The notes under the pieces are model-generated. The model searched no databases. It was given only the letters and a program-made list of their open reading frames with translations, and was not told the origin of the DNA. A stretch of DNA of 64,000 nucleotides, taken from contig NZ_LMUR01000018.1 of assembly GCF_009765825.1 (NCBI RefSeq), positions 1,425,900 through 1,489,899 of the forward strand, in the 5' to 3' direction. This document shows, piece by piece, positions 1,141-23,147 of the stretch. The first letter of the stretch is position 1. Each line of letters opens with the position of its first letter. This DNA is from Granulicella sp. L60 (lineage in GTDB: Bacteria; Acidobacteriota; Terriglobia; Terriglobales; Acidobacteriaceae). The translations under genes were made by a program, and so were the position numbers.

Positions 1141-4100
1141 TTAGAAGTTCAGCTTCAGTTGGAACTCCGTCGTTCGCGGACCACCAATATCCGATGTGCC
1201 GGAGCCGCGTTGAACACGATTCAGGTCGTGATCGGTAAAGCCGTTAGGACCGTTCAACAGACCGCTGGAACTGCCAGTCGTCGTATTCGCTAGCGTCCCA
1301 TTCGTATAGTCTCTGAAGTTTGAGAAGTTCCCGACGTTGTAGAAAGCGATGCCCGGTACTAACGATAAGCCCTCCCGCAGACGGGTGATACGGATTGGAT
1401 AGGAGACGCTCACGTCGAGATTGCGGTAGAAGGCGTTCTCCGGACCAATCTGTTCCGAAACTGGAACGATGGGTTGCTGCGTAGCCTGCAGGGCGATCAG
1501 TTGTTGCTGGGTGAAAAGGTTAGATGCAACCAATGCCTGGCCGGCGGGCGTCAACTGACCGGCCTGGGTTGCATTGTACTGTGAGATTAGTTTGTTGAGA
1601 TTATTTCCCTTGTACTGATGCATGAACGCTCCAGGGCCTGTTCCCGGAACGAGATCGCCGATTGTCCCGTCGCCGGTTACATCGGACTGAAAGATACCTG
1701 CCGTTGCGCTGCCGCTGGTTCCACCGTTATCAAGATTGAGATCGGTGGCCGCCGCGGAATAGAAATGTCCAATGATGCCGATCTGCGGACCATACTTCAA
1801 CGTTGCCGAGCCGCCGAATGAGACCTGATGCGTGTGGTCAAGTCCGTTGCGCCCTATGTATGCCGTCGGATGATCGAAGTCGTACGACGGCGAAGAGAAA
1901 AACTGATCGCCTACGCCTGTATTCCCTGCGTTGATAGCCGGGTTTGCCGTCGATACGATGCGCGACAGAGAGTAAGAGATCTGCAGATTGGAGCTCATGA
2001 TGCCAGGCACTGGATGGGACTTCTGTTCGCGGAAGACTATCTGCAGCGCATCGTAGCCCGATCGGCCAACAGGCAACAGGAAGAGGCCTTGACCCAGAAG
2101 CGGATTGAGTCCGGGAAACGCCGCACCTGTTGCAACGGTTCTGCCGACGTACGATGCGGGATTCGTGCCATTGAAGGTGATTCCCGAGTCAAGACCATTC
2201 GAAGCGAAGTCGGCGATCTGAGCACCGGCTGCAATGGCGCATGTGATCGCCGCACTGCTGTATCCTCCCGCACAGCCGAAGCTGCTGGTCGTTACAGCCA
2301 TGGCGTTCTGAGCGGCCGTGGTGTTGAGAGTGCGTGCAGCACCTACATGGTTCACATCAATCTGCTGCGCGATCTTCAGAGTCGAGTTGTGAACATAATC
2401 AACTGAGAGAATTCCTCCCTTGAAGATCTCATGCTGGATACCGCCGTTCCACTGCTCGGAGTAAGGCGTGCGGTAAGGAGCCCCATAAGCTTCGGTGATC
2501 GTCAGGTTATTGCCAACATAGCTGCTATTGCTGGCTGGGCCGACCTTCGCGGTGACGCTCTGAAACAGGTTCTGAAGGTTGATGAAATGCTGGCCCGCCT
2601 GGCCTAGGGGTTCAGAACAGATCGCCGCGATTGAAACGCCGCCATCGCTTGTAACGACGGAACCATCCGGCAGCGTCAGCGAGTTGGTACCACCGCAAAG
2701 AGTATGGTTTGAATCGTTAAAGAGACCCATTGGGATCAAATTCGCGCGGGCGTTGGTCGTATTGTTGAAGACATCACTCTCGTAGAAGATGCCGAATGCG
2801 GCACGCACTACAGTTTTATGATCTCCCGGACTAAAAGCGAAGCCGAGTTGAGGGCCAAAGTTAGCGTAGGGCTGATGGATCTTCTTACCCAGCCCAGCCT
2901 GAAACTGATCAAGCAGAGGCGCACTACCGGAGCATGGAGATTCCAGTGAAGGATCCACATCCGAGCAAAGCGGCGTTGGCAGGTCCTGGTTGGCGCGGTC
3001 CGTATCGACGCTCCAGCGAAGGCCCGCCGTCAACGTAAAGCTCGGAGTGATCTTCCAGTTGTCGGAGAGATAGGCGCCCTGCCGCCAATCCTCTGTTCCG
3101 CCACCCGGCAGGTTGAAGCCTGGGTTTTCCGTGAAAAATCCTTCTCCATTACCGAATCTCACTCCAGCGGCGAAGTAGCCATTCAGAGGATCGGAGGGGC
3201 AGGGGCCAGGTGTCCCATCTCCGCAGTTCGGTAGCAAGGTGGATGCAAGAAGGCTTACTCGCGGGGCTAAGCCAAAGAAGCTGGCAAAACCACCGCCAAG
3301 AATACGGTTTAGGCTATACCCGTAACGGATGAGATGAGTTCCCTTCGTCCAACTTCCGTCATAGCGAAATTGTTTGTCCGATTGATAGGTGTTTTGAGGG
3401 GAGTCAACGTTCGGGCCCGAATAGAGACCGGCTGTTGCCAAACGAAAGTTCAGACCCGGAAAGCCGTTATACACGCTACTGTTTCCATCGGTTCCATCTA
3501 CCAGCAGATTGTGAAACTTCTCATAGCTGGCTCGGAACGAGTGAGTGAAATGTCCTGTTGCAAAGTCCGCCCCACCTGCGAGGCCGGGCGTGTTATCGCG
3601 ATTGTCATAGATCTCATAACCCGCGCCGAAGTTTGAGCTGGAGATGTTGACGTCGTAGTTTGCACGAGCAAAGTAATGCACGCCCCATGGCCCGTCGTAG
3701 TCTAGGCGAACGGTGGAATATGTCTCGCGGAAAGGGGATGGGATGGTCGGGTACGCCGCCTGAATCGCCGAGAAGGTTGGGGCCATCGTGATAGAAACCG
3801 GTGACTCCTGCTTGATACGCTCCGCATTGCCGAAGAAGAAGAGCTTATTTTTAAGGATCGGCCCGCCGACACTTCCGCCAAACTGATTTCGCTGGAAGGG
3901 AGTATCTATACCGCCTGCAGTATTTGCGAACAACGCGCTATGATCCTGGAAGTTGTAGAAGGCTTGACCGTGAAGTCTATTAGTCCCAGAGTTTGTGGAG
4001 ACCAATACCTGGCCGGTTGAGGTCACATCTCCCGAAACATCCTGGGTCGAGCGATTTAGCTGAAAGTCTCCGATTGCGCCTTGAGAGACGTTGAAGATCG

Positions 4101-4719
4101 TTGTACCAACCGTTTCGTCTGTGATGTCCTGGCCGTCGAGGAGAATACGAGTCGTTCGCCCCGAAACACCGCTCGTTGAGATCGCCGAGTAGCCCGCCTT
4201 GGTTGGATCAAATGATTCTCCACTCTGCAGAATTACGCCCGGCTCGATCTGGGCGAGGTCGAGGAAGTTACGACCATTAACCGGCAGAGAATCGATCTGC
4301 TCTCTCGTGATAACGTCACTCACACCTGCCTGGTCAGTGTTGACTTGAAGTGCTCCGGCGGTCACTTCCACTGTCTCTGTCGATGACCCGACTACAAGCC
4401 GGAAGCTTCCGCTTGTCGCCGTACCAGTACGTACGACCGTCTTTACCGTCAGCGTTTCAAATCCCGGAGCGGTTACAGTAACCGTATACGGCCCTGGATT
4501 GAGAGGTCCGATGCTATAGAACCCACTTGTATCGGTCTTTAGGGTCTTCGAAGAGTTAGTGTCATTCCCAAGTATGATGACTACGGCATTCGGCACGATT
4601 GCACCTGTGCTATCAGTGATCGTGCCCTGAATTGAACCACCGTTGACAGAGATTGCCTGCCCCTCTCCCATCACGGCAGTCGCAAGAACCAACATCAATA
4701 TACTGAGTAGCGTCTTCAT
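1141..4719 (-). CDS. Oar-like TonB-dependent receptor, 1192 aa
   Basis: Large outer-membrane receptor. After a signal peptide (MKTLLSILMLVLATAVMGEG) comes a carboxypeptidase-regulatory-like beta-sandwich (GSIQGTITDSTGAIVPNA, about residues 25-110). A plug domain follows (ITREQIDSLPVNGRNFLDLAQIEPGV), then a long beta-barrel ending in LKLNF with a terminal Phe. This architecture is typical of acidobacterial Oar/CarbRegSusC-type receptors that import glycans or other large substrates with TonB. I chose the ATG at 4719 because AGGAG lies 7 nt upstream and a signal peptide starts exactly there; the longer reading frame adds 11 residues without these features. It lies downstream of the Fap-like cassette on the same strand, but a 500-base gap suggests its own promoter. 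Substrate unknown. Confidence 0.9.
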   Translation of the reverse strand: MKTLLSILMLVLATAVMGEGQAISVNGGSIQGTITDSTGAIVPNAVVIILGNDTNSSKTLKTDTSGFYSIGPLNPGPYTVTVTAPGFETLTVKTVVRTGTATSGSFRLVVGSSTETVEVTAGALQVNTDQAGVSDVITREQIDSLPVNGRNFLDLAQIEPGVILQSGESFDPTKAGYSAISTSGVSGRTTRILLDGQDITDETVGTTIFNVSQGAIGDFQLNRSTQDVSGDVTSTGQVLVSTNSGTNRLHGQAFYNFQDHSALFANTAGGIDTPFQRNQFGGSVGGPILKNKLFFFGNAERIKQESPVSITMAPTFSAIQAAYPTIPSPFRETYSTVRLDYDGPWGVHYFARANYDVNISSSNFGAGYEIYDNRDNTPGLAGGADFATGHFTHSFRASYEKFHNLLVDGTDGNSSVYNGFPGLNFRLATAGLYSGPNVDSPQNTYQSDKQFRYDGSWTKGTHLIRYGYSLNRILGGGFASFFGLAPRVSLLASTLLPNCGDGTPGPCPSDPLNGYFAAGVRFGNGEGFFTENPGFNLPGGGTEDWRQGAYLSDNWKITPSFTLTAGLRWSVDTDRANQDLPTPLCSDVDPSLESPCSGSAPLLDQFQAGLGKKIHQPYANFGPQLGFAFSPGDHKTVVRAAFGIFYESDVFNNTTNARANLIPMGLFNDSNHTLCGGTNSLTLPDGSVVTSDGGVSIAAICSEPLGQAGQHFINLQNLFQSVTAKVGPASNSSYVGNNLTITEAYGAPYRTPYSEQWNGGIQHEIFKGGILSVDYVHNSTLKIAQQIDVNHVGAARTLNTTAAQNAMAVTTSSFGCAGGYSSAAITCAIAAGAQIADFASNGLDSGITFNGTNPASYVGRTVATGAAFPGLNPLLGQGLFLLPVGRSGYDALQIVFREQKSHPVPGIMSSNLQISYSLSRIVSTANPAINAGNTGVGDQFFSSPSYDFDHPTAYIGRNGLDHTHQVSFGGSATLKYGPQIGIIGHFYSAAATDLNLDNGGTSGSATAGIFQSDVTGDGTIGDLVPGTGPGAFMHQYKGNNLNKLISQYNATQAGQLTPAGQALVASNLFTQQQLIALQATQQPIVPVSEQIGPENAFYRNLDVSVSYPIRITRLREGLSLVPGIAFYNVGNFSNFRDYTNGTLANTTTGSSSGLLNGPNGFTDHDLNRVQRGSGTSDIGGPRTTEFQLKLNF

Positions 4720-5220
4720 GAACTTTCTCCTGGCTTCCAAAGTTGAAAACATGGATCCGAGATCATCATGTGGTCCGCCGCGCTGCTCGCGGTCATCTCT
4801 CGAATTCCGACATGTAGTACGAAATCAATTCAAGCGCCTTTTGCTCTTGTTGTAATTTCAGGCGCACCTTCGCTTTTGAGTACGATATGGTTGGCCGAAC
4901 ACAGCTACAATCGCGTCTGGCTACTTCTCTATCCGCTTTGACGGGATATTACGGAACCACTTACTAAGCCATCAGTCGTACTTCACCGCAGATCATCTAG
5001 AGGATCACGGGAACGTATGCACTAAACGCTTCAGTTCCTGGGAAGTTGATTGGAGTGCCCATATTAAAACAGGACAAGACCAAGTCGCGACCACGTAGAA
5101 ACGACTTTAGGGCAAGCGCAGCACGACTGCTATGGCCACCTCAGGAAAGTTTCACATAGCCACTTGTCACGATGTGCATATGTGTCAGGCGATCGAGTTA
5201 GGCACATAGACTATTTTTGC
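4720..5220. other. Intergenic gap between receptor and barrel gene
   Basis: About 500 bases with no credible gene. It should hold the promoter of the receptor gene and the 3' end of the fap-like transcript. No strong terminator hairpin was seen after the barrel gene; a weak CTATGTG/CACATA pairing near 5175-5205 is the best candidate. Confidence 0.5.
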
Positions 5221-6504
5221 TTACTGTACAGACAGCTTCCTCTGCTTTGGTCCCCATAGACCTACCCGGAAAGGCACTCCAACAGAGAACTGCAGATTTG
5301 GTGTGTCGGGCGTTAGCCCCACGCCAAAACTTAAATCGATCGTTCGTCCAGGTGCATAAAGGTAACTCGTTCCCAGGCGCAGCGTCCCCTCCACCAGATA
5401 AGACGCAGGAATATCTGCGCCGTTCAACGTGGTACTCCGCGTAAATCGCTGATCCCAGCCGAGGGTCATCGAAACCTCTGGGTTTAATGCGAGGATCGAT
5501 CCTATCTGGAATCCCATCGCATCTCCAGGCTTGAAGTGACCCACAGTGGTAGCTGCTGGATTGTTCGGATCGTTAGCTGAAACCGTGTGGTCGCCTGCAA
5601 AATTGGCTGTATAGGAAAGATTTCCGAAGAACACTACCGGGTCGCTGGACTTCGCCAGTGTCAGGTTTCCCTGAAGCGCATTGAATCCTGTTCCCAGCGC
5701 CACCTCGCTACTCTGCAGGTTATAAGGGTCCTTGCCTGTCGTGGATTTGAAGCGAACGTTTGCTAGAATATCGGGTTTCTTTCCACGTTCGGTTGTCAGC
5801 TGCCGTGAGATGCCGGCCGAGATATCGCCCAACCCGAAGCTGCTTGAAGATGTTTGCACATTGTTCGCATCCACGGTTCGAATTAGTTCATACCCATATG
5901 GAACTGTGAACTCGCCCTGGAACTTATGAGGTAATCCGAGTCTTGCCGTAAGGGACGGCAATAGGTAGTCCTCACGCACGCGCTCCGATGCGATATCGCC
6001 CACCACCAGTACTGGAAGCAGCGCAAATCCGTTGACTGTGACATGGTCTGAGGATGCGCTGAAGTAGGAGGTTGTGTTGTCGATCTCCAACGTTCCGGAG
6101 GGCAGCAGTAAGCCGCCACGCACAATCAAAGCCTGATCGAGCGCCTCGGTCGCCTGCCGTTCTGTGGTGTCGTACGTGGATGTCGATACGATCGAATTGA
6201 TGACACGACTGGTTGACGGACTAGGTAGGACAGGGCGTTCGTCAAGCTTGGCAGAAGTAGCTCCACCGTTCACTCGCAACTCGAGCTCGCTTACGCGTTC
6301 CAGTAGGTTCCGGATGATGGCATCGCGCTCTCGCAGCGCATCTTGTAGTTTCAAATCGATCGGGTCTTTCGACGGAGCCGCTACCTTGGCCTGAGCGATC
6401 TGCTGATTCTGTGGCTGTTCCTTCACCGGCGTCGTCTGGGCCAGAAGAGTTCCCGCACACGTCAGCATCAAAAGAAGGCCTGATAAAACTCTTCGCCGCA
6501 ACAT
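5221..6504 (-). CDS. FapF-like outer-membrane transporter with coiled-coil N-terminus
   Basis: 427 aa. A signal peptide (ending ...AGTLLAQ) is followed by a Gln/Ala-rich linker and a short predicted coiled coil (LQDALRERDAIIRNLLERV, about residues 50-78). After a second linker comes a barrel of amphipathic strands from about residue 125 (ALIVRGGLLLPSGTLEI, TARLGLPHKFQGEF) to the end. FapF of Pseudomonas has the same order (coiled-coil plug plus 12-strand barrel) and about the same length; it exports amyloid subunits through the outer membrane. The gene starts 16 bases after the FapD-like peptidase gene and is last in the cassette. The alternative is a generic transporter of the phenol-degradation MetA type, which shares the fold; the C39 neighbour favours FapF. 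Confidence 0.75.
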   Translation of the reverse strand: MLRRRVLSGLLLMLTCAGTLLAQTTPVKEQPQNQQIAQAKVAAPSKDPIDLKLQDALRERDAIIRNLLERVSELELRVNGGATSAKLDERPVLPSPSTSRVINSIVSTSTYDTTERQATEALDQALIVRGGLLLPSGTLEIDNTTSYFSASSDHVTVNGFALLPVLVVGDIASERVREDYLLPSLTARLGLPHKFQGEFTVPYGYELIRTVDANNVQTSSSSFGLGDISAGISRQLTTERGKKPDILANVRFKSTTGKDPYNLQSSEVALGTGFNALQGNLTLAKSSDPVVFFGNLSYTANFAGDHTVSANDPNNPAATTVGHFKPGDAMGFQIGSILALNPEVSMTLGWDQRFTRSTTLNGADIPASYLVEGTLRLGTSYLYAPGRTIDLSFGVGLTPDTPNLQFSVGVPFRVGLWGPKQRKLSVQ

Positions 6505-6520
6505 CGAGCCGCCTTTCCCT

Positions 6521-7201
6521 TCAGTACAGATAGTTACTCGGAGCCACGACTCCGATCTTTCGTGAGATCACCGACTCGTCCGGTAGCAGCCGCGATGCAA
6601 CAGACACACTCTTCTCTCCAATCATCCTGTCGTCCGGCGGATGAATCGTGAACACAATGCCGTTCTTCCACAGAGTCTGAAATCGATCAACCCGCATGGT
6701 CATATTGCCGAACCCCGGATCGCCCAGAATCACATGCCCCGCGTAGATACCTTTCACCACTACAAAATGGTCGAAACCCTTCACCCGTATCGGAACGATG
6801 ACCGAAGTCTTTTCCATTGCCAGATCCTCAATCGACATGCCACTGAAGGCCTCCGCATGATATCCACGAGCCTCAGAGAAGCGCTTCAGGTCCAGTAGCG
6901 AAAATCCCCCGCGAGCTCGCACACGAACCGGGTCCACCCGATGCAGGATCCACACCACGATCGAGGTTTCAGGTGTTGGGTCTTTAAAATCGTAAGCCAG
7001 CAAGGTGCTCAATGCCGCAGCGCCGCAGCTCATATCCCAGCGTTGCTTCACCACGCCTTCGTCACGAATCTCTTTCATGCTGCGAATATTCTTGCTCGCC
7101 TGCACCCCGGTTGCGCCTCCAGTGCTCTGGGCGCGCGCGGGGGCAGAGAAGAGAGAAAGAATCACCGCTCCAGCGGAGACTAGTGACCGAAGGCAGCTCA
7201 T
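6521..7201 (-). CDS. FapD-like periplasmic C39 cysteine peptidase
   Basis: 226 aa with an N-terminal signal peptide ending near APARAQ (residue 25). The C39 catalytic set is complete: oxyanion Gln53 and Cys59 in KQRWDMSCGAAAL, His145 in GFDHFVVV and Asp161 in LGDPGFGN. GGFSLLDLKRFSEARGY is the usual C39 middle helix. It is a stand-alone peptidase, not fused to an ABC transporter, as in FapD. The start ATG overlaps the stop of the upstream small subunit gene by one base (TGATG), so the two are translationally coupled. C39 enzymes usually cut after a double-glycine-type leader; both upstream secreted proteins carry such a motif (see findings). The family assignment is firm; a role in amyloid subunit maturation or secretion is inferred. 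Confidence 0.88.
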   Translation of the reverse strand: MSCLRSLVSAGAVILSLFSAPARAQSTGGATGVQASKNIRSMKEIRDEGVVKQRWDMSCGAAALSTLLAYDFKDPTPETSIVVWILHRVDPVRVRARGGFSLLDLKRFSEARGYHAEAFSGMSIEDLAMEKTSVIVPIRVKGFDHFVVVKGIYAGHVILGDPGFGNMTMRVDRFQTLWKNGIVFTIHPPDDRMIGEKSVSVASRLLPDESVISRKIGVVAPSNYLY

Positions 7202-7608
7202 CAGTGTTTCCCGTTCAGGTTGGACTGCAGAATGGTTCCGACCGTCGAGTTAAGATTGACGTTCAGGTTCAGCAGCACGTTTATATTCGAGTTCACAGCG
7301 TTGATATTCACCAGCGAACTTAGGCTCTGCTGTGCGCTGCCGTTCAATGTGAGTGTGCTCATATTAGTCCCGGTCAGCGGTCCAGTGAGGACTTGCAGCG
7401 TACCCGCGCCTGTTACCAGGCCGTTGGCCGTTGGCGCTGATCCTTGAAACTGCACAACTCCATTTGAGACTCCCGCTGTAACGCCCGCTGCCGTGATTCG
7501 ATCCATGGCAGCGTCGTTCAGCGGTTGACCCGTGTGCCTGGTTGGGCTTTGGGCCAATCCTGCAGTGGCTAGCATAGTAAGACTCGCAATCACTAAAAGA
7601 CGACTCAT
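7201..7608 (-). CDS. Small secreted Fap-like subunit (possible nucleator)
   Basis: 135 aa, not recognised as a named family. Signal peptide to about residue 20 (ATAGLAQ), then LNDAAMDRITAAG at residues 30-42, which matches the leader-like motif of the large neighbour. The C-terminal half is an Asn/Leu/Val-rich repeat-like stretch (LTLNGSAQQSLSSLVNIN ... LLNLNVNLNSTVG) resembling the modules at both ends of the 565-aa protein. There are no Cys residues in the mature part and it ends in His, like its neighbour. A strong AAGGAGGA site precedes the ATG. By size and position it could be the equivalent of FapB or FapE, but primary sequence does not prove this. Confidence 0.7.
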   Translation of the reverse strand: MSRLLVIASLTMLATAGLAQSPTRHTGQPLNDAAMDRITAAGVTAGVSNGVVQFQGSAPTANGLVTGAGTLQVLTGPLTGTNMSTLTLNGSAQQSLSSLVNINAVNSNINVLLNLNVNLNSTVGTILQSNLNGKH

Positions 7609-7640
7609 ACATCCTCCTTGAAGCCGAGTGCAGCAAAGGC

Positions 7641-7669
7641 CGGAACTCCGCCGCTAGTGCGGAGTTCCG
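7641..7669 (-). promoter_or_regulatory. Intercistronic hairpin between the two subunit genes
   Basis: A perfect 11-bp stem (CGGAACTCCGC at 7641-7651 with GCGGAGTTCCG at 7659-7669, 7-nt loop) sits in the 75-base gap after the large subunit gene. Only a short T-run follows on the transcribed strand, so it may act as a partial terminator or RNA stabiliser that sets a high ratio of large subunit to export genes. Confidence 0.6.
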
Positions 7670-7683
7670 ACCTGTAACTGCTT

Positions 7684-9381
7684 TTAGTGGACCTGCGAGA
7701 TGCTGTTGACCTGGCTCAGCGAAGGAATCGCGTTCATGTTTGCCGAGTGAGCGATGTTCAGCCCATTTGCAACCATGCCACCAGCTGCGTTCACGATGTT
7801 CAACGCCTTCGCGTTCGACTCAGCAGAACCGGCGAGGGTCACGCTGTAGTTGTTAGCTGCATTGACAGTCGAGCCATCCACTGCGATGTTGGTCGCGGCG
7901 GCATTATCCAGGCTGACTGCTCCTTCAATGTTCTGAGTTACTGCGGTGTTCTTCACTGCCGTGCTGGAGCTCATGTCCGAGCTGCTGGTCGAAAGGCTCG
8001 CTACCGTGCTGGTTGCCGAGTCGTTCGAGGAGTTGATGTTATGCGACGAAGCATCGCTCTTGGACAGCATAGAGCTGTTGCTGCTGGCGCTGCTCGCACC
8101 GAAGGAGCTCATAGAAGCTTTGTTGGCGCTGGACGAAAAAGCTTCCTGTCCGCCCTTCGATGAGCTGGAGTTGGTGGCGAAGTTCTTGGAGTCGCCCGTG
8201 CTTGCCGCAAGGCTTGCATTGGAGGCCGAGTTGTCGGACGCACTTGCATTCAGCGACTTGTTCGACGTAGATGCATCGCTGCTCGCGCCGTTCGAACTGG
8301 AGCCAGTCTGGTAGTTGTCGGCGGCCGCCAGGGAAGCATTGCCTGCAAACGATCCGTTCGCCGCTGAACTCGTGCTGCTCGCACCGTTCGCAGCGTTATT
8401 GGCCGCTGCGCTCTTTGCTGCTCCGTTGTTGGTTGTGGCACCCTTGCCCTGCTGATAGTTAGACGATGCGCTCTGACTTGCTGCCGAGTTCGCGTAGTTG
8501 CTTGCCGAGTTCGAGCTGTTCGCACCCGAAGCATTGACAGCGCCGCTTGCATTGAGTGATTTATCGTTCGTGGTGCCGCTGGACGTAGCGGCATTTGCAC
8601 CGAAGGTATTGCTCTTGCCTTCGCTTGCGCCTAGGCTCTCTGTGGAGCCCGATGACTTCGCTGCGCTTGCGTTCAAGGCACTGTTGGACGTAGAAGACTT
8701 CGTTGTTCCCGAAGATTTGTTATCGTAGGCCGACGCAGAAGCGTTGTCGGAAGAAGAAGAGCTGTTGCTGTTCGTGTTTGTGAGCGAAGCATTCTTCGAC
8801 GCCGAAGAGCTGTTCGTGAAGCTGCTATTGCTCGCTTGGTCATTCGTGTACGACTTGTTGTCGCTCGCGCTATGGTTCAAAGAACCATTCAGGCTCGACG
8901 AGGTGGCATCTGTCTTAGACACGTTCGAGCTCTTATTGACCGTAAGCTGGCTGTTGGCACCGCGAGTGTAACCGCTTAGAGATGCCGTCGTGCCCGCAGA
9001 CTGCGAGATGACGTTGCCCTGTGTGACATCGGCGCCTTTCGTAGTGCTATCTGCGGTCATGCTGCTGTCGTACACATTAACGCCGTTTGCAACCAGGCTG
9101 TCGCTCGAGTTCACAATATTAATACCGCTCGCACCGCTCAAGGCGCTTCCACTTACATTCACCGCGCCCGTATCCGTGGAGTTGACTGTCGAGTTATTCG
9201 CCGCGATCGAACCTGCGCCAGAGGGATCGCTTTGACCGGCCGTGACCTTATCCATCTGGTTATCACGGAGAGCCTGTTTGCTCTGTTTGTCGTTTGTGGT
9301 TTTTGGTTTGTTGCTCTGTCCGTAGGCGGAGCCGCCGACTAGAACCGATGCGGTAATGAGAGTGCAAATGAGCTTATTCAC
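7684..9381 (-). CDS. Large Ser/Asn/Ala-rich secreted FapC-like protein (candidate amyloid subunit)
   Basis: 565 aa from a GTG start (9381). An AGGAGG site lies 5 nt upstream and a signal peptide begins there (MNKLICTLITASVLVGGSAYG); an upstream ATG at 9399 has no such support. Residues 38-49 read LRDNQMDKVTAG, a double-glycine-leader-like motif. Two related modules flank the protein: near residues 55-105 (STVN...GSALSGASGINIVNSSDSL) and in the last 75 residues (GSAESNAKALNIVNAAGGM, then VANGLNIAHSANMN). Between them lie about 380 residues almost only of Ser, Asn, Ala, Gly, Thr and Lys with recurring SLNAS, GANA and SSNS blocks and scattered Tyr. The mature part has no Cys, unlike the CxxC-bearing Fap proteins of Pseudomonas. 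Best guess is the main fibre subunit; an unstructured surface or biofilm matrix protein is the alternative. Confidence 0.72.
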   Translation of the reverse strand: MNKLICTLITASVLVGGSAYGQSNKPKTTNDKQSKQALRDNQMDKVTAGQSDPSGAGSIAANNSTVNSTDTGAVNVSGSALSGASGINIVNSSDSLVANGVNVYDSSMTADSTTKGADVTQGNVISQSAGTTASLSGYTRGANSQLTVNKSSNVSKTDATSSSLNGSLNHSASDNKSYTNDQASNSSFTNSSSASKNASLTNTNSNSSSSSDNASASAYDNKSSGTTKSSTSNSALNASAAKSSGSTESLGASEGKSNTFGANAATSSGTTNDKSLNASGAVNASGANSSNSASNYANSAASQSASSNYQQGKGATTNNGAAKSAAANNAANGASSTSSAANGSFAGNASLAAADNYQTGSSSNGASSDASTSNKSLNASASDNSASNASLAASTGDSKNFATNSSSSKGGQEAFSSSANKASMSSFGASSASSNSSMLSKSDASSHNINSSNDSATSTVASLSTSSSDMSSSTAVKNTAVTQNIEGAVSLDNAAATNIAVDGSTVNAANNYSVTLAGSAESNAKALNIVNAAGGMVANGLNIAHSANMNAIPSLSQVNSISQVH

Positions 9382-10697
9382 TTCTGCCTCCTGGGGCATT
9401 TGTTGACGAAGCGCGACCGTCTACGCAGCAGACCCGGCTGCACAGTGGACAAATTTGACGCACCAATCTGCGCGGGCCCGGCAGGAGATGGGCGCAGTGG
9501 GACATCACGTGAATATTTGAGTTAGGGCTTCAATACGGGCTGAATAAAATCAGCATAAACAAAAAAAGAAAAAATCATGCGATCGAAACGCTTCATAGAA
9601 GCCGGTCGCGTCGTAGTCCATGTCGTGCGTGAAGCCCGTTATTCCTAATGACTGTCATCTCTGTCTTGCATACATCGCGCGACAGATAGAGCCCGTTTCA
9701 GAAGCCTTCAGACTTCCGACGGCGTGATATATGCAATCGTCATACCAATTGCGGACCTTGCATTTCATGGCAAATATCGCATGTGTCTTCGAATACCATG
9801 CAGCAACTTGCAAATATCGAGGAAAAAGTTGCCCAGTTGCATCTACCGCAGCAGTAACCCCATGGCATGACCCGGTCGTAACCCCGGATTTATTCCTCTG
9901 AATATCTGAATAATAGATAAGCTAACTACTAGCAAGCTCGTTCCGGGTGGCATTGTAGTTAGTTTTGGCTCACCCCATTTTTTTGCGACAGCGAAAGTTA
10001 TCAGCTGATTTCTACTTTCAGATAATCGACTAGGCAGAGATATATCGGATCATGCTGTAAATAATGCCGATTATTCACAGCATGGGCATAATTAGCGTTT
10101 TGAAATTGACAGCCGGAAATTGCCCGGTCTATAGTCGTCGTCGCACCTATAACGATAGCTCCTACAGTTATTGCGGGAATGCGTTGTTGTGCCCGAACTC
10201 TTTTCAAAAATCTGTAATGTATCCACTGGCTATCCTTTATGCACTACGTTGTTCTAACAGCTAAGAATTAATACTCAAAGGAGGGACGAAGGCCAACAAA
10301 ATGCCGGTCACTATTCGGGATAATGCGAAAGTTCCTAGATTGTCGCTTGCTAGACGGCAGAATCGGGACCGCTTAGCAAGTGGCGAAAATCTCAGGAAGG
10401 CGGTGTAACGATATCCCAACCCTCGCGAGATTATCGCCACGATTTTGGCCATATAGCGACCTCGGTCTTTTTTTAGCCATACCATCAACGCATCGGCTAC
10501 AATTCACCGACTCATCGAGGGCTGATTTCACGTTACCGAATTTCTGATGTTGAATCATAGCCAAAAAGTTTATGGCAATAAGCGAAATCGAACGAGTGCT
10601 ACGTCGCAAGACCCCGGCGAGTGGACATTGGTGTCCTCTCATCTTATTGGCATAGTACGAGCATTTGTAGATGTTCAAAGGAATAGGAATTCGGGCT
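9382..10697. other. 1.3-kb AT-rich intergenic region between the Fap-like cassette and the GH3 gene
   Basis: No convincing gene. Short reading frames here lack ribosome-binding sites and protein-like composition. The region separates divergent transcripts, so it should carry both promoters. It contains a strong hairpin (10051-10084), a repeated 10-mer GCAAATATCG at 9770-9779 and 9810-9819, and an A-rich tract near 9560-9575. Confidence 0.6.
10051..10084. repeat. Strong 15-bp inverted repeat, operator or structured RNA
   Basis: Arms at 10051-10065 and 10070-10084 pair at 14 of 15 positions (one A-C mismatch at 10059/10076) around a GCCG tetraloop. No T-run follows on either side, which argues against a plain terminator. 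Confidence 0.6.
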
Positions 10698-13385
10698 ATG
10701 TCATTAGGGAACAGGCAGTACCTTGCGGCGATTCTATTTTTAGGTATTTCTGGTGCGGTAGTTCAGGGACAAGTGATTCCGGCGGAGAAGGCAGATGACG
10801 CTCGAGTGGAGCATCTGCTAAGAGAGATGACGCTGGAAGAGAAGATGAACTTGATCCGAGGTGGCGTGGAAGATTCTTCGGTCTACCAGGGGCAGGCAGG
10901 GTATATGCCGGGTGTGCCGAGACTACATGTTCCTTCGCTGCGTATGGCGGATGGGCCTCCCGGGCTGCTGACGCGAGTTCCTGCGCAGGCAGAGACGGCG
11001 ACGATGGGAGTTTCGGCAACCTTCAGCACGAAGGACGCAGAGGCAAATGGTGTGGTCATCGGCCGGGAGGCTCGCTCCCTTGGAATCGATGTGGTGCTGC
11101 AGCCGTTCATCAATATAGATCGCGACATCACCTTTGCACGCGGGTACAATACCTTAGGCGAAGACCCATTGCTGACAGGCCTGATGGGAGCGGCTGAGAT
11201 TCGCGGGGCGCAAGCACAGGGAGTGATGGCGCAGGCGAAGCATTACGTGGGATATGACACCGATTCATACAATGTGTTTATCGATCAGCAGACGCTGCAT
11301 GAGGTGTACACTGCGCCATTTGTGCAGGCGGTGAAGGCGGGCGTCTCGTCCGTCATGTGTTCGTACAACCACGTCAATGGCCCGTTTGCCTGCGATAACA
11401 GCGATACCCTGAACACCATTCTCAAGGGCGAGATAGGATTCAAAGGCTTCGTAACATCGGACTGGGGTGCGGTACACAGCGTTACATTCATCAACCATGG
11501 GATGGATATGGAGATGCCTGGTTCGCTGCCACCAGACAGTCCCTTTACTGCATTCATCAACTCCTACTTTGTGACCGCCGGCGCTGAGACTGCTCCAGCG
11601 AGCAAGCTCGATCAGGATGCGCTGGAAGGTATTCTGGGAGGGTCTATTCCAGAGGAGCATGCAGCACCAGGCATGGATATGAACGCGTTCCCCCGCGACA
11701 ACGATAAGACGACGATGGAAGCGGCGTTGAAAGATGGGACAGTAACTGAGGCGACGATTACCGCGGCGGCCCGAAGAGTCCTCTACGAGATCGATCGCTT
11801 CGGCTATCTGGATGGAAAGCAGAAACATACAGTGACGCCGCAAGATGTTGAAGCCAATGCGGCGATTATCCGAAAGACTGCAGAGGACGCAGCGGTGCTG
11901 CTGAAGAATGAGCACGCGCTTCCGCTAAGCAAAGACGATCTACAATCGCTGGCCTTGATAGGTCCCGGCGCAGGGCAGGTCGCGGCAATCGGAACGTTTG
12001 GAGAGCGCAGTCCGGGGTTAGTGGAGAGGCAAATTGGACCGCTTGAGGCTTTGAAGAAGCTCGCACCTGGGACCAATGTCCGCTACGCAGTGGATGACGA
12101 TATGACTGGTGTACCTATCGATGCAGCGATGCTCTCGCATGAAGGCAGACCTGGACTGGTAAGGACTGTTAGCACAGGAAAGAGTTTCATAGACGCACAA
12201 CTGAACTTTACTCATACCAATGGCAGACCGCTTCCGGCTAACGAAAGCGTGACTTGGACAGGAACGTTGAGCGCGCCGGGCGCGGGAGACTATTGGCTTT
12301 ACCTACAGGTGCTGGGCGCACGTGGCATACTCTCGGTCGACGGCAAAGAAGTTGGGCGTACGGGTGCCGCAAAGGGCACGGTGCACGGAGATGTGCAACA
12401 TGCGACGCAGGACAATGGATTTCCCACGACAGATGGGTTGGACAATGTCCGACGCTCGGTGCAGTTGACTGCTGGTCCGCATGACATCACGGTGAAGGCG
12501 AGCGGAGATACGTCGAATCATCCTGAGCAGATTCGTCTAAGCTGGATGACTCCTGAGCAGCGGCAGCGCAATCATGACGCGGCGATTGATGCGGCGAAGC
12601 ATGCACATACTGCAGTCGTGTTTTTGTGGACGCGCGGCAAGCCGAACTTCGAGTTACCGGGAGAACAGGACAAACTCGTTGAGGACATTGTGGCGGTGAA
12701 CCCAAATACGATTGTCGTACTGAACGTCAGCCAACCGGTAGCCATGCCCTGGATAGGCAAAGTAAAAGCGGTGCTGCAGATGTGGTGGCCCGGAGATGAG
12801 GGCGGTTGGGCGACTGCGGATGTTCTTTTGGGTAAAACCGATCCGGCGGGCCGTCTGCCCTTTACCTGGGCGAAACGTCTGCAGGATTATGCGGCGAACG
12901 ATCCAGCGTATCCAGAGCGTTCGGCCAAGGGCGTCGATGGCAAAACGACGTTCTCCGAGGGAGTAGACGTCGGCTATCGCTGGTTCGATAAACAGAAGAT
13001 CGAGCCTCTATTTCCATTCGGCTACGGGCTGTCGTATACAAGCTTCGACTACTCGGATCTCCACGTGAAAAAGGCGGCGGACGAAGGACTGGATGTATCG
13101 GTTCGCATCAAGAATGTTGGCAGTGTCGCGGGGGATGAAGTGCCGCAGGTATATCTGGATGCACCGCAGCAGAGGTCGCAGGGAGTGCAGTTCGCAATGC
13201 GTACACTGGCTGCGTTCGATCGTGTGACGCTCGCGCCGGGTGAGAGTAAAGAGGTTACATTGCACGTGTCTCCACGCAGCCTTGAATACTGGTCGGTTGC
13301 GGAGAAGCGTTGGGTGCGTTCGGATAAGAGACTGGTCAGGATTGGCTCTTCCTCGCGCGACTTGAGACTTACGGCTGAGAGATGA
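10698..13385 (+). CDS. Secreted GH3 beta-glucosidase with PA14 insert
   Basis: 895 aa. The start at 10698 gives a signal peptide (MSLGNRQYLAAILFLGISGA ... QGQ) with AGGA upstream; an in-frame ATG at 10671 is less likely. The GH3 N-terminal TIM barrel runs to about residue 400, with KHYVGYDTD and the nucleophile Asp in FVTSDWGAVHS (about residue 257). The C-terminal alpha/beta domain is split by a PA14-like segment (about 520-620, WTGTLSAPGAGDYWLYLQV). A fibronectin-III-like end follows LFPFGYGLSYTSF. It should release glucose or other sugars from beta-linked oligosaccharides in the periplasm or outside. It stands alone, divergent from the Fap-like cassette, with a palindrome downstream. Confidence 0.92.
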   Translation: MSLGNRQYLAAILFLGISGAVVQGQVIPAEKADDARVEHLLREMTLEEKMNLIRGGVEDSSVYQGQAGYMPGVPRLHVPSLRMADGPPGLLTRVPAQAETATMGVSATFSTKDAEANGVVIGREARSLGIDVVLQPFINIDRDITFARGYNTLGEDPLLTGLMGAAEIRGAQAQGVMAQAKHYVGYDTDSYNVFIDQQTLHEVYTAPFVQAVKAGVSSVMCSYNHVNGPFACDNSDTLNTILKGEIGFKGFVTSDWGAVHSVTFINHGMDMEMPGSLPPDSPFTAFINSYFVTAGAETAPASKLDQDALEGILGGSIPEEHAAPGMDMNAFPRDNDKTTMEAALKDGTVTEATITAAARRVLYEIDRFGYLDGKQKHTVTPQDVEANAAIIRKTAEDAAVLLKNEHALPLSKDDLQSLALIGPGAGQVAAIGTFGERSPGLVERQIGPLEALKKLAPGTNVRYAVDDDMTGVPIDAAMLSHEGRPGLVRTVSTGKSFIDAQLNFTHTNGRPLPANESVTWTGTLSAPGAGDYWLYLQVLGARGILSVDGKEVGRTGAAKGTVHGDVQHATQDNGFPTTDGLDNVRRSVQLTAGPHDITVKASGDTSNHPEQIRLSWMTPEQRQRNHDAAIDAAKHAHTAVVFLWTRGKPNFELPGEQDKLVEDIVAVNPNTIVVLNVSQPVAMPWIGKVKAVLQMWWPGDEGGWATADVLLGKTDPAGRLPFTWAKRLQDYAANDPAYPERSAKGVDGKTTFSEGVDVGYRWFDKQKIEPLFPFGYGLSYTSFDYSDLHVKKAADEGLDVSVRIKNVGSVAGDEVPQVYLDAPQQRSQGVQFAMRTLAAFDRVTLAPGESKEVTLHVSPRSLEYWSVAEKRWVRSDKRLVRIGSSSRDLRLTAER

Positions 13386-16235: not shown

Positions 16236-16826
16236 TATGCTCCCGTCTTGCTGCTCTACGGACGATGGAACCTTCTACTTGCTACCTAAAGCGATTCTGA
16301 TACCAGAACGCATGAATGGCAATACAAAAATAGGTTACCTCTGTGCGGATGACTATCTTCTTCTACTTTTTTCATGACGGCAAAAGACCAACCTATATCT
16401 GCCTAAGTTATAGGAACGAGCTTCCGTTTCAAAAAAACCGACCACGATAAGTCGCTATTTTTGCGAGATATCGAAAGAAATTCGGTAGTGATATCACCAC
16501 TGATATCAAACTGTAGCTTTATTACTTACCCTCTAAATCCAAACTCAAAGTCACGCGCTATATAGGTTACTGCAAAGATTTGCGGTTACTTTTGGAATCA
16601 CTTTGCGTTTGATTTGGCCTTGGAGGAACCCATGTTTCAACTGCCCGGCAAGCTCGATGCGATAACTGCCCGATACCTCCCTCATTTCTTTTCCAGCTTA
16701 GTAGACACCGAAGTTTGGTCGGACTGGTGGCCGCTGACTCTGTCGGCCAAGAGACATAAACAGGCGCCGAAACAGAACGATTCCCCAAGTTCCTTTCGTC
16801 CCTGCCCAAATCAGAAGGAGTTCTCC
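16236..16826. other. Intergenic region upstream of the giant lipoprotein gene
   Basis: AT-rich, about 590 bases, divergent promoters expected. The reading frame of the next gene extends back to 16614, but the upstream part lacks a ribosome-binding site. A palindrome GTGATATCAC (16488-16497), followed closely by CACTGATATC, is a possible regulator site. Confidence 0.5.
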
Positions 16827-19800
16827 ATGTCGAGTAAATTGCTGCCGTTTCTGAATGCGGATCGCCTGAACACTACTGTCTTGAACGACAATGCGACTGG
16901 TAATTCCGCCGTATTGATCATTCTTCATACGACTGCAATGTTTATGTTTCTTCTTACAGTTTGCCTAGCATTTACAGGATGCGGATCTGGCGGATATGCC
17001 GGTGGCGGTGTCGTCAGCCTGTCGAGTTCTGCGGTTACGCTGGATGCCGGCCAGGCCTTCATGATCAATTCGAAGCTCTCTGGAGCGCCGTCTGTATCTT
17101 GGGCGCTTTCAAGCAACGCCTGTAACTCCAGCGGTTGCGGAACGCTCTCGAGCGCAGTTGGTTCGTCCGTGACTTATACGGCCCCTGCTGGCATCACCTC
17201 GCAGCTGCAACTAACATTGACAGCGGGAGTTACAGGAACAAAAGACGCCAGCGCGGTCAGCATCACGGTCAACCCGGATCCGACGATCTCCGGCACTCCT
17301 TCGAGTGGGACCGTAGGAAGTGCTTACTCCGCTACGCTGACCGCCACCGGCGGCACGGCTCCTTTGAAGTGGAGCGTAGCCAGTGGATCTCTTCCAGTGG
17401 GTCTCAGCTTTAATACGACGACGGGTGTTATCTCTGGCACGCCCACCGCTCCAGGCACGTCCAGCTTCACTGTTCAAACTACGGACTCCAGCGACATTCC
17501 TGACTCCGTGACCGCAAAAGAGACGATTGTGATCTCTACCGGTGTAGGCGCATCTGGGCCACTGACCGTTATCGGAGGAAATCCTCCTGCTGGAATAGTG
17601 GGTGCAGCCTATTCGACCTCTCTCGCAGCCTCGGGCGGAACCGCGCCTTACACGTGGAGCGTTATCTCCGGGAGTCTTCCCGCTGGTCTCGCGCTCTCTG
17701 CTTCGACGGGCGTTATCTCGGGAGTCCCAACAGCGCAGGGCACGTATGGATTTACGGCTCAGGTGCAGGATGCGTCAGGCAGTCATGCGAGTGCTGGCTT
17801 TAGCATTATGATCAACGCTGCAAAGAGTGCTGTGACGTTGACGCTTGGGAATCCTCCGGGCGCTACGGCAGGGACGCCTTATACCGGTACGGTTGTCGTA
17901 ACTGGTGGAACCGCACCATACATCTGCACGATCACTGGGCTGCCTGCTGGATTGACATCCTCTGGTTGCACAATAAGTGGCACGCCGACTACTGCAGGAA
18001 CATCAACGCTTACCGTAACTGCAACTGATTCTGGCAATCCAACTACAACGAAGACCGGTTCAGTTACGCTGACAGTCGGACCTGCCGCTGTGGTTCTAAC
18101 GCTTGGCACACTGCCCAATGCAACGGTTGGAACTCTCTACACGGGCACGGTCGGTGTGACGGGCGGAACTGCACCTTATACCTGCACAATCACTGGATTG
18201 CCTGCTGGGCTGACTGCCTCTGGCTGCACGGTCAGCGGCACTCCAACCACTGCGGGAACATCCACAATTACTGTTACTGCAACTGACTCCAGCAGTCCCG
18301 CTGCGACGAAGACTGGTCCGGTTACTCTAACAATCGCACCTGCTGCCGTCGTTCTGACACTTGGCACTTTGCCTAATGCAACTGTTGGAACGTTGTACAC
18401 CGGTACGGTTGGTGTGACCGGTGGAACCGCACCGTACACCTGCATGATCACCGGGCTGCCTGCTGGGTTGACTGCTTCTAGCTGCACGGTCAGCGGCACT
18501 CCGCCCACTGCGGGAACATCCACAATTACTGTTACTGCAACTGACTCCAGTAGTCCCGCTGCGACGAAGACTGGTCCGGTTTCTCTAACGATCGGACCGG
18601 CCGCTGTTGTTCTAACGCTTGGCACTTTGCCTAATGCAACTGTTGGAACTCTATACACGGCCACAGTTGGTGTAAGTGGTGGCACTTCACCGTACACCTG
18701 CACAATCACCGGATTGCCTGCCGGGTTGACTGCCTCTGGCTGCACGGTCAGCGGCACTCCGACCACTGCGGGGACATCAACGCTAACCGTTACTGCGACT
18801 GACTCCAGTAGTCTTGCTGCGACGAAGACTGGTCCGGTTAGTCTGACGATCGCACCGGCTGCTGTCGTTCTGACGCTTGGCACGCTGCCTGATGCAACTG
18901 TTGGAACTCTATACACGAGCACAATTGGTGTGACCGGTGGAACTGCACCGTACTCTTGCTCGATCACCGGATTGCCTGCTGGGTTGACTGCTTCTGGCTG
19001 CACGGTCAGCGGTACTCCGACTACTGCGGGGACATCCACACTCACTGTTACCGCAACTGACTCCAGCAGTCCTACCGCAACGAAGACGGGACCAGTCAGT
19101 CTGACGATCGCACCGGCTGCTGTCGTTTTGACACTTGGCACTTTGCCTAATGCGACTGTTGGAACGCTGTACACCAGCACGGTCGGCGTAAGTGGTGGCA
19201 CTGCACCGTACACCTGCACAATCACCGGAGCGCCTGCTGGGCTGACAGCTTCAGGCTGCATAGTCAGCGGCACGCCCACAGTTGCGGGAACGTCGACGCT
19301 AACCGTTACAGCGACGGACTCTCACAGCCCTGCTGTGACGAAGACTGGTCCGGTAGTTCTGACAATCGCACCGGCTGCTGTCAATCTGACGCTAGGCACG
19401 CTTCCGAATGGGACGGTCGGTAATCTGTACATCAACACGGTTGGTGTGACCGGTGGAACTGCACCGTACTCTTGCTCGATCACCGGACTGCCTGCTGGAT
19501 TGACGGCTGCTGGTTGCGCAGTGAGCGGCACTCCGACAACCGCCGCGACATCTACACTCACTGTTACTGCAACTGATTCCAGCAGTCCCGTTGCGACGAA
19601 GACTGGTCCGGTTGCGCTGACGATCGTCCCGGCTTCGATCACTCTAACGCTTGGAACACTAGCGAACGCGACAGTTGGAACTGTTTATAGCGGCACGGTT
19701 GGTGTAACAGGTGGAACGGCCCCATATAGCTGCACGATCACCGGATTGCCTGCTGGGCTGGTTGCTTCCGGCTGCACGGTCAGCGGCACTCCGACGACTG

Positions 19801-21836: not shown

Positions 21837-23147
21837 GTGCGTCGAATCACTCTAGCTCTGGTCCTTGTAATCCTCGGAGTCTCTTCTGCCATCGCGCAGC
21901 AGAGACCCGACAATCCGGCATTTCTCGTCCCACGCTTCTCTGTCTCTCTGGGATACAACCACATGAATGCAAACGCACCTCCGGGACAGACCGATTACTT
22001 CGGCCTGAACGGGGGATACGTCTCCGGAGATTTCTACTTCACTCACTGGTTCAGTATCGCCGCTGAGTTTACCGGCGGTCATGCAAACGACATCAGCATG
22101 TTGGGTCAGGATCTCACCCTGACCACCTACCAGGCTGGCCCAAAGGTGTCGCTGACAGGACATCGCTTTGTGCCCTATGGCCAAATCCTCTTCGGCGGGG
22201 CTCATGGAAGCGACTCTTATTTTCCGACGTCGACCTCCTTCACCTCCAGCGCATCGAGCTTTGCGTTCTCTCCTGGTGGCGGCGTTGATATCAACCTCAC
22301 GCGCCGCTTTGCTGTTCGCGCTGTGGATGCCGACTACTTGAGGACAACCCTGCCGAACGGCACCAATAACTCACAGAATCATCTCATGATCGGTGCTGGC
22401 GTCGTCATCAAGTTCGGCCAGCGCGACTCTCCTTCCACTCCTGTTCGGACGGCGGTTCAGCGCCCGAGCGAGATTCTGTTTACCTGCGCCACCAGCGTTG
22501 CAAATGTCAACGCGGGAGAGCCGTTGGAGATCATCGGCCATACCCTCACCGAACCCGATCGCCTCGATGTCAACTACACATGGGCGTCGAGCGGAGGCAA
22601 GATAGAAGGTTCTGGCCGAAGCGTCACCCTCAACACGGCAGGTCTGGCCAGCGGCGACTATCACGTCACCGGGCATGTCGCGTTGGTCATAAGTCCATTG
22701 ACTACAGCTGACTGCGATGCCGCATTCCGTGTCACCGCGCGCAGCGTTCCAACTCCTCCTAGCGCTGTTCCGGACCAATCCGCGCTGCAGGCGAAAAAAG
22801 ACGCGATCTTCCACGAAAATGTCCAGGATGCTCTCTTCGACTATGACAGTGCTGTGATCAGGGCTGATGCGCAGACTGCTATCGAACATGCTGCTCATTA
22901 TCTGAAAGAGAACCCATCGATTCGTGTTCTCGTAGGCGGTTACGCGGATGAGCGCGGCTCCGCCGAATACAACCTTGGCCTTGGGCAAGAGCGCGCAAAC
23001 AATGCACGCAACGCGCTCATCGCAGCGGGCGTTGACGCAGATCGCGTCCAGGTCATCAGCTACGGAAAGGAGGCCCAGGTATGCACAGCTCAAAACGAGA
23101 GTTGCTGGCAGCAAAATCGACGCGCAGCTTTCTCAATGCATCCCTAA
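21837..23147 (+). CDS. OmpA-family outer-membrane protein
   Basis: 436 aa from a GTG start with GGAAGGAG upstream. A signal peptide (VRRITLALVLVILGVSSAIA) is followed by an eight-strand-type barrel (residues 25-195, FSVSLGYNHMNANAPPG ... MIGAGVVIKFGQR). An Ig-like linker (LFTCATSVANVNAGEPLEI) precedes the OmpA C-terminal peptidoglycan-binding domain (FDYDSAVIRADAQ ... GYADERGSAEYNLGLGQERA). It links outer membrane and cell wall. It lies 48 bases after the giant lipoprotein gene and could anchor or stabilise it. The final part carries Cys in VCTAQNESCW, as is common in Pal/OmpA domains of this phylum. Confidence 0.9.
   Translation: MRRITLALVLVILGVSSAIAQQRPDNPAFLVPRFSVSLGYNHMNANAPPGQTDYFGLNGGYVSGDFYFTHWFSIAAEFTGGHANDISMLGQDLTLTTYQAGPKVSLTGHRFVPYGQILFGGAHGSDSYFPTSTSFTSSASSFAFSPGGGVDINLTRRFAVRAVDADYLRTTLPNGTNNSQNHLMIGAGVVIKFGQRDSPSTPVRTAVQRPSEILFTCATSVANVNAGEPLEIIGHTLTEPDRLDVNYTWASSGGKIEGSGRSVTLNTAGLASGDYHVTGHVALVISPLTTADCDAAFRVTARSVPTPPSAVPDQSALQAKKDAIFHENVQDALFDYDSAVIRADAQTAIEHAAHYLKENPSIRVLVGGYADERGSAEYNLGLGQERANNARNALIAAGVDADRVQVISYGKEAQVCTAQNESCWQQNRRAAFSMHP

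Follow-up and report, generated by a model that had tools for sequence, protein, structure and literature searches.

Introduction

The Fap system of Pseudomonas (fapABCDEF), with its repetitive secreted subunits, its C39 peptidase FapD and its outer-membrane pore FapF, was at first known solely from Beta-, Gamma- and Deltaproteobacteria (PMC3792158). A 2025 survey gives fap and curli operons in phyla including Pseudomonadota, Desulfobacterota, Nitrospirota and Bacillota, and describes the FapB/C repeats as required, three repeats as almost invariable and Fap as evolutionarily "fixed" (PMC12822426); three imperfect repeats are reported in 94% of FapC and of FapB (PMC12392863). With fapD-fapF pairs listed for five additional phyla in a 2018 review, this pairing outside Proteobacteria is already known (PMC6173800). 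Acidobacteriota were not mentioned in the 20 listed of 26 papers matched by our literature search, and the search, which covered few subscription papers, gave nothing joining Edaphobacter with amyloid, or "Fap operon" with amyloid and Acidobacteria. Here a four-gene cassette, likely of Fap type, is described in a 64,000-nucleotide stretch of the acidobacterium Granulicella sp. L60 (contig NZ_LMUR01000018.1, positions 1,425,900 to 1,489,899, forward strand; hereafter the window).

In Pseudomonas, FapD is periplasmic and its active-site cysteine is needed for FapC secretion, its target being called unclear (PMC5557850). The 2018 review describes the FapD substrate as "yet to be determined" (PMC6173800), a 2025 review names FapE and FapF as presumed targets of FapD processing (PMC12822426), and a 2023 docking paper treats FapD as modifying FapC, no cleavage data being seen in its accessible part (PMC10638192).

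Results and Discussion

The four-gene cassette

Four co-oriented genes are arranged head to tail along the minus strand (9381-5221), and all those described in the first-pass annotation, for a repetitive Ser/Asn/Ala-rich protein, a small protein, a C39 peptidase and a barrel, were recovered by reading of the open reading frames (ORFs), alignments, profile searches and, for the barrel, a structure model and fold search:

7684-9381, minus strand: large secreted fibre-subunit candidate (FapC-like role), 565 amino acids (ORF reading, alignments)
7201-7608, minus strand: small secreted subunit candidate, 135 amino acids, with one C-terminal repeat (ORF reading, alignment)
6521-7201, minus strand: stand-alone C39 peptidase with signal peptide (FapD/FilB-like), 226 amino acids (Pfam, NCBIfam, alignment)
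5221-6504, minus strand: FapF-like outer-membrane barrel, 427 amino acids (NCBIfam, PDB, structure model, fold search)

The peptidase start overlaps the small-subunit stop by one base, and 16 bases then lead to the barrel gene. Signal peptides of the cassette proteins were judged by eye.

The cassette is likely a Fap-type system for the secretion of fibre-like proteins, stripped to two subunits, a periplasmic C39 peptidase and a FapF-like pore. In the mechanism that we propose, both subunits would cross the inner membrane by Sec and shed their signal peptides; the FapD-like peptidase would bind and cut a double-glycine-type leader in the periplasm; the processed, unfolded subunit would pass through the FapF-like pore, gated by the helical N-terminus of the latter; and outside it would polymerise via Asn-rich repeats (such as GSALSGASGINIVNSSDSLVANGVN), with the variable Ser/Asn linker on the fibre surface. 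By analogy with Fap, these fibres may be amyloid.

A double-glycine-type leader on both subunits

Both subunits carry, between the signal peptide and the repeats, the pattern [LMI]-x-D-x-x-[LM]-[DES]-x-[VIL]-x-A-[GAS], located by pattern, score and entropy:

9235-9270, minus strand: double-glycine-type leader LRDNQMDKVTAG, residues 38-49 of the large subunit
7486-7521, minus strand: double-glycine-type leader LNDAAMDRITAA, residues 30-41 of the small subunit

This pattern resembles the double-glycine leaders that C39 peptidases cut. The subunits agree with the C39 leader consensus of hydrophobic residues at -12, -7 and -4 and G or A at -2 and -1. All 37 of the 37 N-termini compared within the branch, from 18 small and 19 large subunits, have the leader (two more rows, split or decayed fragments, were excluded), and 30 of 31 subunits from 15 loci reached 6-7 points on a seven-point leader score, for which shuffles expect 0.85 (near-duplicate loci L027-L029 omitted; 5' piece of L032 used). 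Alignment entropy was 0.81 bit over the leader of the small subunits, with 2.15 before and 1.24 after it, and 0.94 bit in the large subunits, with 2.21 before and 2.14 after (L027-L029 and L031 omitted). The leader L, D and A were invariant also in MAFFT whole-protein alignments, and the leader is canonical in a Myxococcota metagenome-assembled genome (MAG), locus L006 (LSDGELEGVVAG, LTDGELDAIAAG, LTDAELDGVAAG). Among 108 secreted-like ORFs taken as controls, 22 reached 5 points and five reached 6; four of these five belong to fap or C39 loci (the window FapF, the L044 FapD, an L052 small protein and an L056 peptide beside a C39 gene), and the fifth, an L036 protein, has no known link to them.

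We lean towards the view that the FapD-like peptidase cuts both subunits at this leader. Since each subunit has its own processing signal, the branch may do without FapE, if the cleavage reading holds.

Several points weigh against cleavage of both subunits. Classical double-glycine leaders are N-terminal and are met in the cytosol, whereas here a Sec signal precedes them. At position -1, A is frequent (7 of 14 small and 6 of 15 large subunits). The seven-point score was composed from the C39 leader consensus after these sequences had been seen, the controls were chosen by a crude signal-peptide rule and include some Fap-locus proteins, single-protein shuffle p-values range from 0 to 0.17, and the 30 in 31 are not 31 independent tests because the counted subunits are homologous. 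The entropy comparison, anchored on the leader and made without gaps, is biased towards the leader relative to its flanks. The fold of the subunits was not predictable, a short large-subunit relative (L004) giving a mean predicted local distance difference test (pLDDT) score of 35. None of nine large FapC-like proteins at other fapD loci (L049, L051 and L052 left out) reached 5 points, with 0.63 expected, so that only in this branch would every subunit be cut. Finally, in whole-cell mass spectrometry of Pseudomonas, FapA-D were unprocessed and only FapE, perhaps also FapF, was processed; the authors state that Fap proteins are without canonical C39 sites, while pointing out GG/GA motifs in FapE and FapF (PMC5557850).

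The same observations could be read with the motif as an uncleaved export signal that docks the subunits on the pore of a Fap-like system, the C39 protein acting as a chaperone or as the cutter of FapF. Both FapF cleavage and a chaperone role of FapD are discussed in print (PMC5557850), and the control hit in the window FapF is a GG, scoring 6, that follows its predicted coiled coil. This GG is absent in L003 and L004, the catalytic residues of the peptidase are kept, and the subunit motif fits the C39 leader pattern at -12, -7, -4, -2 and -1. We regard a docking signal as rather unlikely, and cleavage at the leader remains our preferred reading.

Leader-like motifs at other fapD loci

Weaker leader-like motifs were seen in small or FapE-like secreted proteins near fapD, and these are a lead rather than a test. 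In a set of 18 such proteins (proteobacterial loci and L040), 17 reached at least 5 points, with 4.2 expected, and 6 reached at least 6, with 0.5 expected, mostly at a site such as LTDDEMSSLRGG; the scoring place differs from this site in L044_E and L046_small, and L055_E has only 4 points. The proteins were picked by position from listings where motifs had been seen, and some of them are related to one another (three from Cupriavidus, two from Photobacterium) or truncated (L043_small); the FapE-like proteins of L042, L049 and L050, a near-duplicate L052 pair, the L054 FilA and FapB-like proteins were left out. Motifs on small or FapE-like proteins and none on large subunits elsewhere agree with the mass spectrometry of Pseudomonas, where the first ~70 residues of FapE are missing (PMC5557850). 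Tentatively, and with slightly less than even confidence, we propose a two-signal route in which Sec export is followed by the periplasmic cutting by FapD of a double-glycine leader, as in type I secretion, that licenses FapF passage. The route would apply to every subunit in the acidobacterial and myxococcal branch, which needs only four core genes, and to FapE-like or small starters only in Proteobacteria.

In another acidobacterial family (f48), 14 genomes match the FapD profile; their FapD-like proteins are probably stand-alone, because the frames are ~175-316 residues long where listed. At one of the four f48 loci examined (L090; 5830-6570 on the plus, 3918-4259 on the minus and 6610-6897 on the plus strand), short peptides have a signal peptide followed by a double-glycine-type leader (LADAEMAAVLGG, LTEAEMVDIVGA), and a FapF was not noticed. 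These peptides are possibly a Sec-dependent bacteriocin-like class. On a Deinococcus plasmid (L056; 5183-5593 and 5905-6531), a secreted peptide with LSDEELDGVTGE lies near a signal-peptide-bearing C39 gene.

Bacteriocins typically have double-glycine leaders and C39 peptidases, and L090 sets such peptides beside a stand-alone C39 protein, so that the small protein of the window might be imagined as a bacteriocin-like peptide matured by the peptidase and released through the barrel. Antimicrobial-peptide export of this kind appears quite improbable: the 565-residue large subunit, with its repeats and Ser/Asn linker, bears the same leader, a repeat is common to both subunits, and the cassette has no ATP-binding cassette (ABC) exporter or obvious immunity gene. 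The peptidase-containing ABC exporters of bacteriocins and microcins share with the window the C39 family and the leader pattern; unlike them, the window has a signal-peptide-bearing, unfused peptidase and a leader that follows a Sec signal peptide.

The FapD-like peptidase

The 226-residue peptidase is not fused to an ABC exporter. It matched Peptidase_C39 in Pfam (E 5e-15), and in NCBIfam FilB (E 2.5e-32, 112 bits, cut-off 475) and FapD (E 4.7e-29, 101 bits, cut-off 330), so that its earlier description as FapD-like holds at the level of profile matches below the curated cut-offs. The putative catalytic residues C59, H145 and D161 were invariant in 10 of 10 aligned FapD-like proteins from Acidobacteriota, a Myxococcota MAG and Proteobacteria, and the closest named FapD relative found was that of Edaphobacter lichenicola (81%). 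Judged from its sequence, the protein is an exported C39 peptidase of the FapD type with Cys, His and Asp kept.

The FapF-like pore

The barrel matched FapF in NCBIfam (E 1.3e-28; 100 bits against an equivalog cut-off of 700), and among the sequences of the PDB it matched four FapF entries (best E 4e-21), the sole other match having E 8.7. A structure model built from six sequences was of low confidence (mean pLDDT 49); searched with Foldseek, it gave FapF chains as its first 18 matches (E 6e-13), followed by the COG4313 channel 4rl8 (E 2e-8). The model has helices at residues 48-78 and 113-130 and strands from 138 onward, as expected for FapF:

6271-6363, minus strand: predicted helix 48-78 of the barrel protein, coiled-coil candidate (low-confidence model, pLDDT 49)
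6115-6168, minus strand: predicted helix 113-130 directly before the barrel, at the FapF plug-helix position (low-confidence model)

The barrel is thus placed, by PDB matches, predicted fold and an NCBIfam match below cut-off, with the FapF-family pores, as the first-pass annotation had it, and the N-terminal coiled coil claimed there corresponds to the helix of coiled-coil type predicted at 48-78. The PTG motif of FapF/COG4313 barrels reads TTG in the window barrel and TTG, VTG or STG in its relatives.

That the barrel could instead be an uptake channel of the COG4313 or phenol-degradation type, with unrelated neighbour genes, is suggested by its Pfam match to Phenol_MetA_deg (E 3e-6) and by 4rl8 being the next fold match after FapF. 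FapF fits clearly better by both sequence and fold, and the four genes stay together while their flanks differ. We consider this very improbable, and the uptake-channel reading of the barrel was rejected on the NCBIfam, PDB and Foldseek results. Channels of COG4313/PF13557 belong to the same barrel superfamily with a fold match weaker than that of FapF, and no C39 partner is reported for them in the accessible part of the 2018 review (PMC6173800).

The two subunits

The large subunit starts with a GTG at 9381, with AGGAGG 5 nucleotides upstream; this start is preferred over an ATG at 9399 because the relatives L003 and L004 begin with MNK there. It consists of a Sec signal peptide, the leader, two repeats and a 363-residue Ser/Ala/Asn linker (31% S, 18% A, 14% N), whose identity to locus L002 is 47%, as compared with 79-80% for the flanking parts. 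The small subunit has one repeat:

9001-9171, minus strand: R1, N-terminal repeat of the large subunit, residues 71-127 (alignments)
7912-9000, minus strand: variable Ser/Ala/Asn-rich linker of the large subunit, residues 128-490 (comparison with L002)
7687-7851, minus strand: R2, C-terminal repeat of the large subunit, residues 511-565 (alignments)
7219-7359, minus strand: single repeat of the small subunit, residues 84-130 (alignments, hhalign)

Repeat counts, read from the alignments, are two and one for the large and small subunits of the window and four for the large subunit of L003. In a single hhalign comparison, small and large subunits aligned over an N-terminal part containing the leader and over one repeat (probability 73%, E 3e-5), and it is mainly there that the two families are alike; the stated kinship of the small protein to the large one is visible only at profile level. 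Against the small proteins found near fapD elsewhere, hhalign gave probabilities of 3% for the small and 50% for the large subunit.

No NCBIfam model matched either window subunit, nor the large subunits of L003 and L006, at E<=1; the large-subunit profile had no match among solved structures at E<=10; and in a search of the genome for further subunit copies both matches fell within the gene of the window.

Comparison with Fap and Fil

With the Pseudomonas Fap system the window shares a FapF-like pore, a stand-alone FapD-type C39 peptidase with signal peptide, the gene order subunits-FapD-FapF, and repetitive Asn-rich secreted subunits with a variable linker. It differs in the leader on both subunits, in having two plus one repeats instead of three, in FapD and FapF matches that fall below the NCBIfam cut-offs, and in the 16 bases between peptidase and barrel genes, where fapE lies in Pseudomonas. 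The FapB, FapC and FapE models found nothing at E<=0.1 in the window genome, while in the Aeromonas positive controls the FapC model gave E 2.5e-50 and the FapE model E 1.3e-11. Direct homology of the window subunits to FapC was not supported (no model match; profile A4 against Aeromonas FapC, hhalign 0.2%). The core logic of Fap proposed in the first-pass annotation thus stands for pore, peptidase and gene order, and is not supported for the subunits as FapC and FapB/E, which no Fap subunit model matches. On the evidence of subunit models, repeat number and the lack of fapE, the cassette is not a canonical fap operon.

The Fil "putative pilus" system of Acinetobacter (FilA, FilB, FilC) likewise sets a C39 peptidase next to a related barrel, FilC, and FilB is the model that best matches the peptidase of the window. 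In the window there is no FilA match, FilC scores 54 bits (cut-off 630), the barrel is nearer to FapF than to FilC, and nothing corresponds to the large secreted proteins that L054 encodes downstream of FilC.

Distribution and gene order

The barrel profile matched 17 of 396 Acidobacteriota genomes at E<=1e-15, namely 14 of the 22 genomes listed for the window's genus, one from a second genus in the family and two from the distant family f29. A broad FapD profile matched 47 of the 396 at E<=1e-12, including 12 of the same 22; many weaker FapD-profile matches sit in open frames of at least 700 residues, as in ABC exporters. Few candidates were scored per genome in these searches, so that absences are soft.

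Besides the window, 20 Acidobacteriota loci were examined, and the same four-gene order was kept in 16 (L002-L005, L026-L037), which comprise 16 of 16 examined Acidobacteriaceae loci with an intact barrel gene; each has a large-subunit homologue. Two of the others (L038 and L039, from two genomes of the window's genus) are decayed cassettes with a partial or broken barrel and no FapD, and two (L040 and L041, of f29) have FapD and FapF homologues with other partners, the subunit profiles finding no match. In genomes G036 and G061 of the window's genus the barrel gene is broken and the FapD profile finds no match. The conserved order that had been expected among Terriglobia relatives is therefore seen, and neither a loss of this order nor an unrelated transporter fitting the barrel better than FapF was found. 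With the window and the two decayed cassettes, 19 loci sort into six flank contexts, and within the stretches compared the window has no flanking gene in common with the other 18. In the Myxococcota MAG L006, the large subunit has two homologues and the small subunit one, together with FapD and FapF. In trees, whose deep forks have weak support and in which long branches were flagged, the window falls among Acidobacteriaceae, with L006 and the long-branched L041 on the same side.

In L041, the FapF-like barrel (8046-9668) has an additional N-terminal stretch and is directly followed by a FapD-like peptidase. In L032 (7616-9315) the large-subunit gene is broken into two frames within the linker, by sequencing error, phase variation or decay.

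Downstream of the cassette, the gene at 4752-1141 encodes a large barrel that is TonB-receptor-like and has a carboxypeptidase-regulatory domain. In the ~1.3 kb upstream of the large subunit, up to a plus-strand gene at 10671, there was no convincing gene, fapA, which known operons often lack, not having been searched by model. No RNA family reached the gathering score in 4700-10700, and a promoter and terminator scan of the locus gave not more than shuffles did. Elsewhere in the window, a 1724-residue secreted-looking protein (16614-21788) has at least seven tandem units with TGLPAGLT-like motifs and is followed by a protein that is OmpA-like by eye (21837-23147); together they are possibly a cell-surface pair.

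Conclusions

The cassette, a small version of Fap in bacteria that are not known as pathogens, points to relatives of the Fap system that use other subunits and that would be expected to escape a search based on FapB/C repeats. The leader offers an exact and cheap prediction of what FapD cuts and where. If the two-signal route is true, a substrate class of FapD would be named, and the Fap pore would serve a second, unrecognised subunit family.

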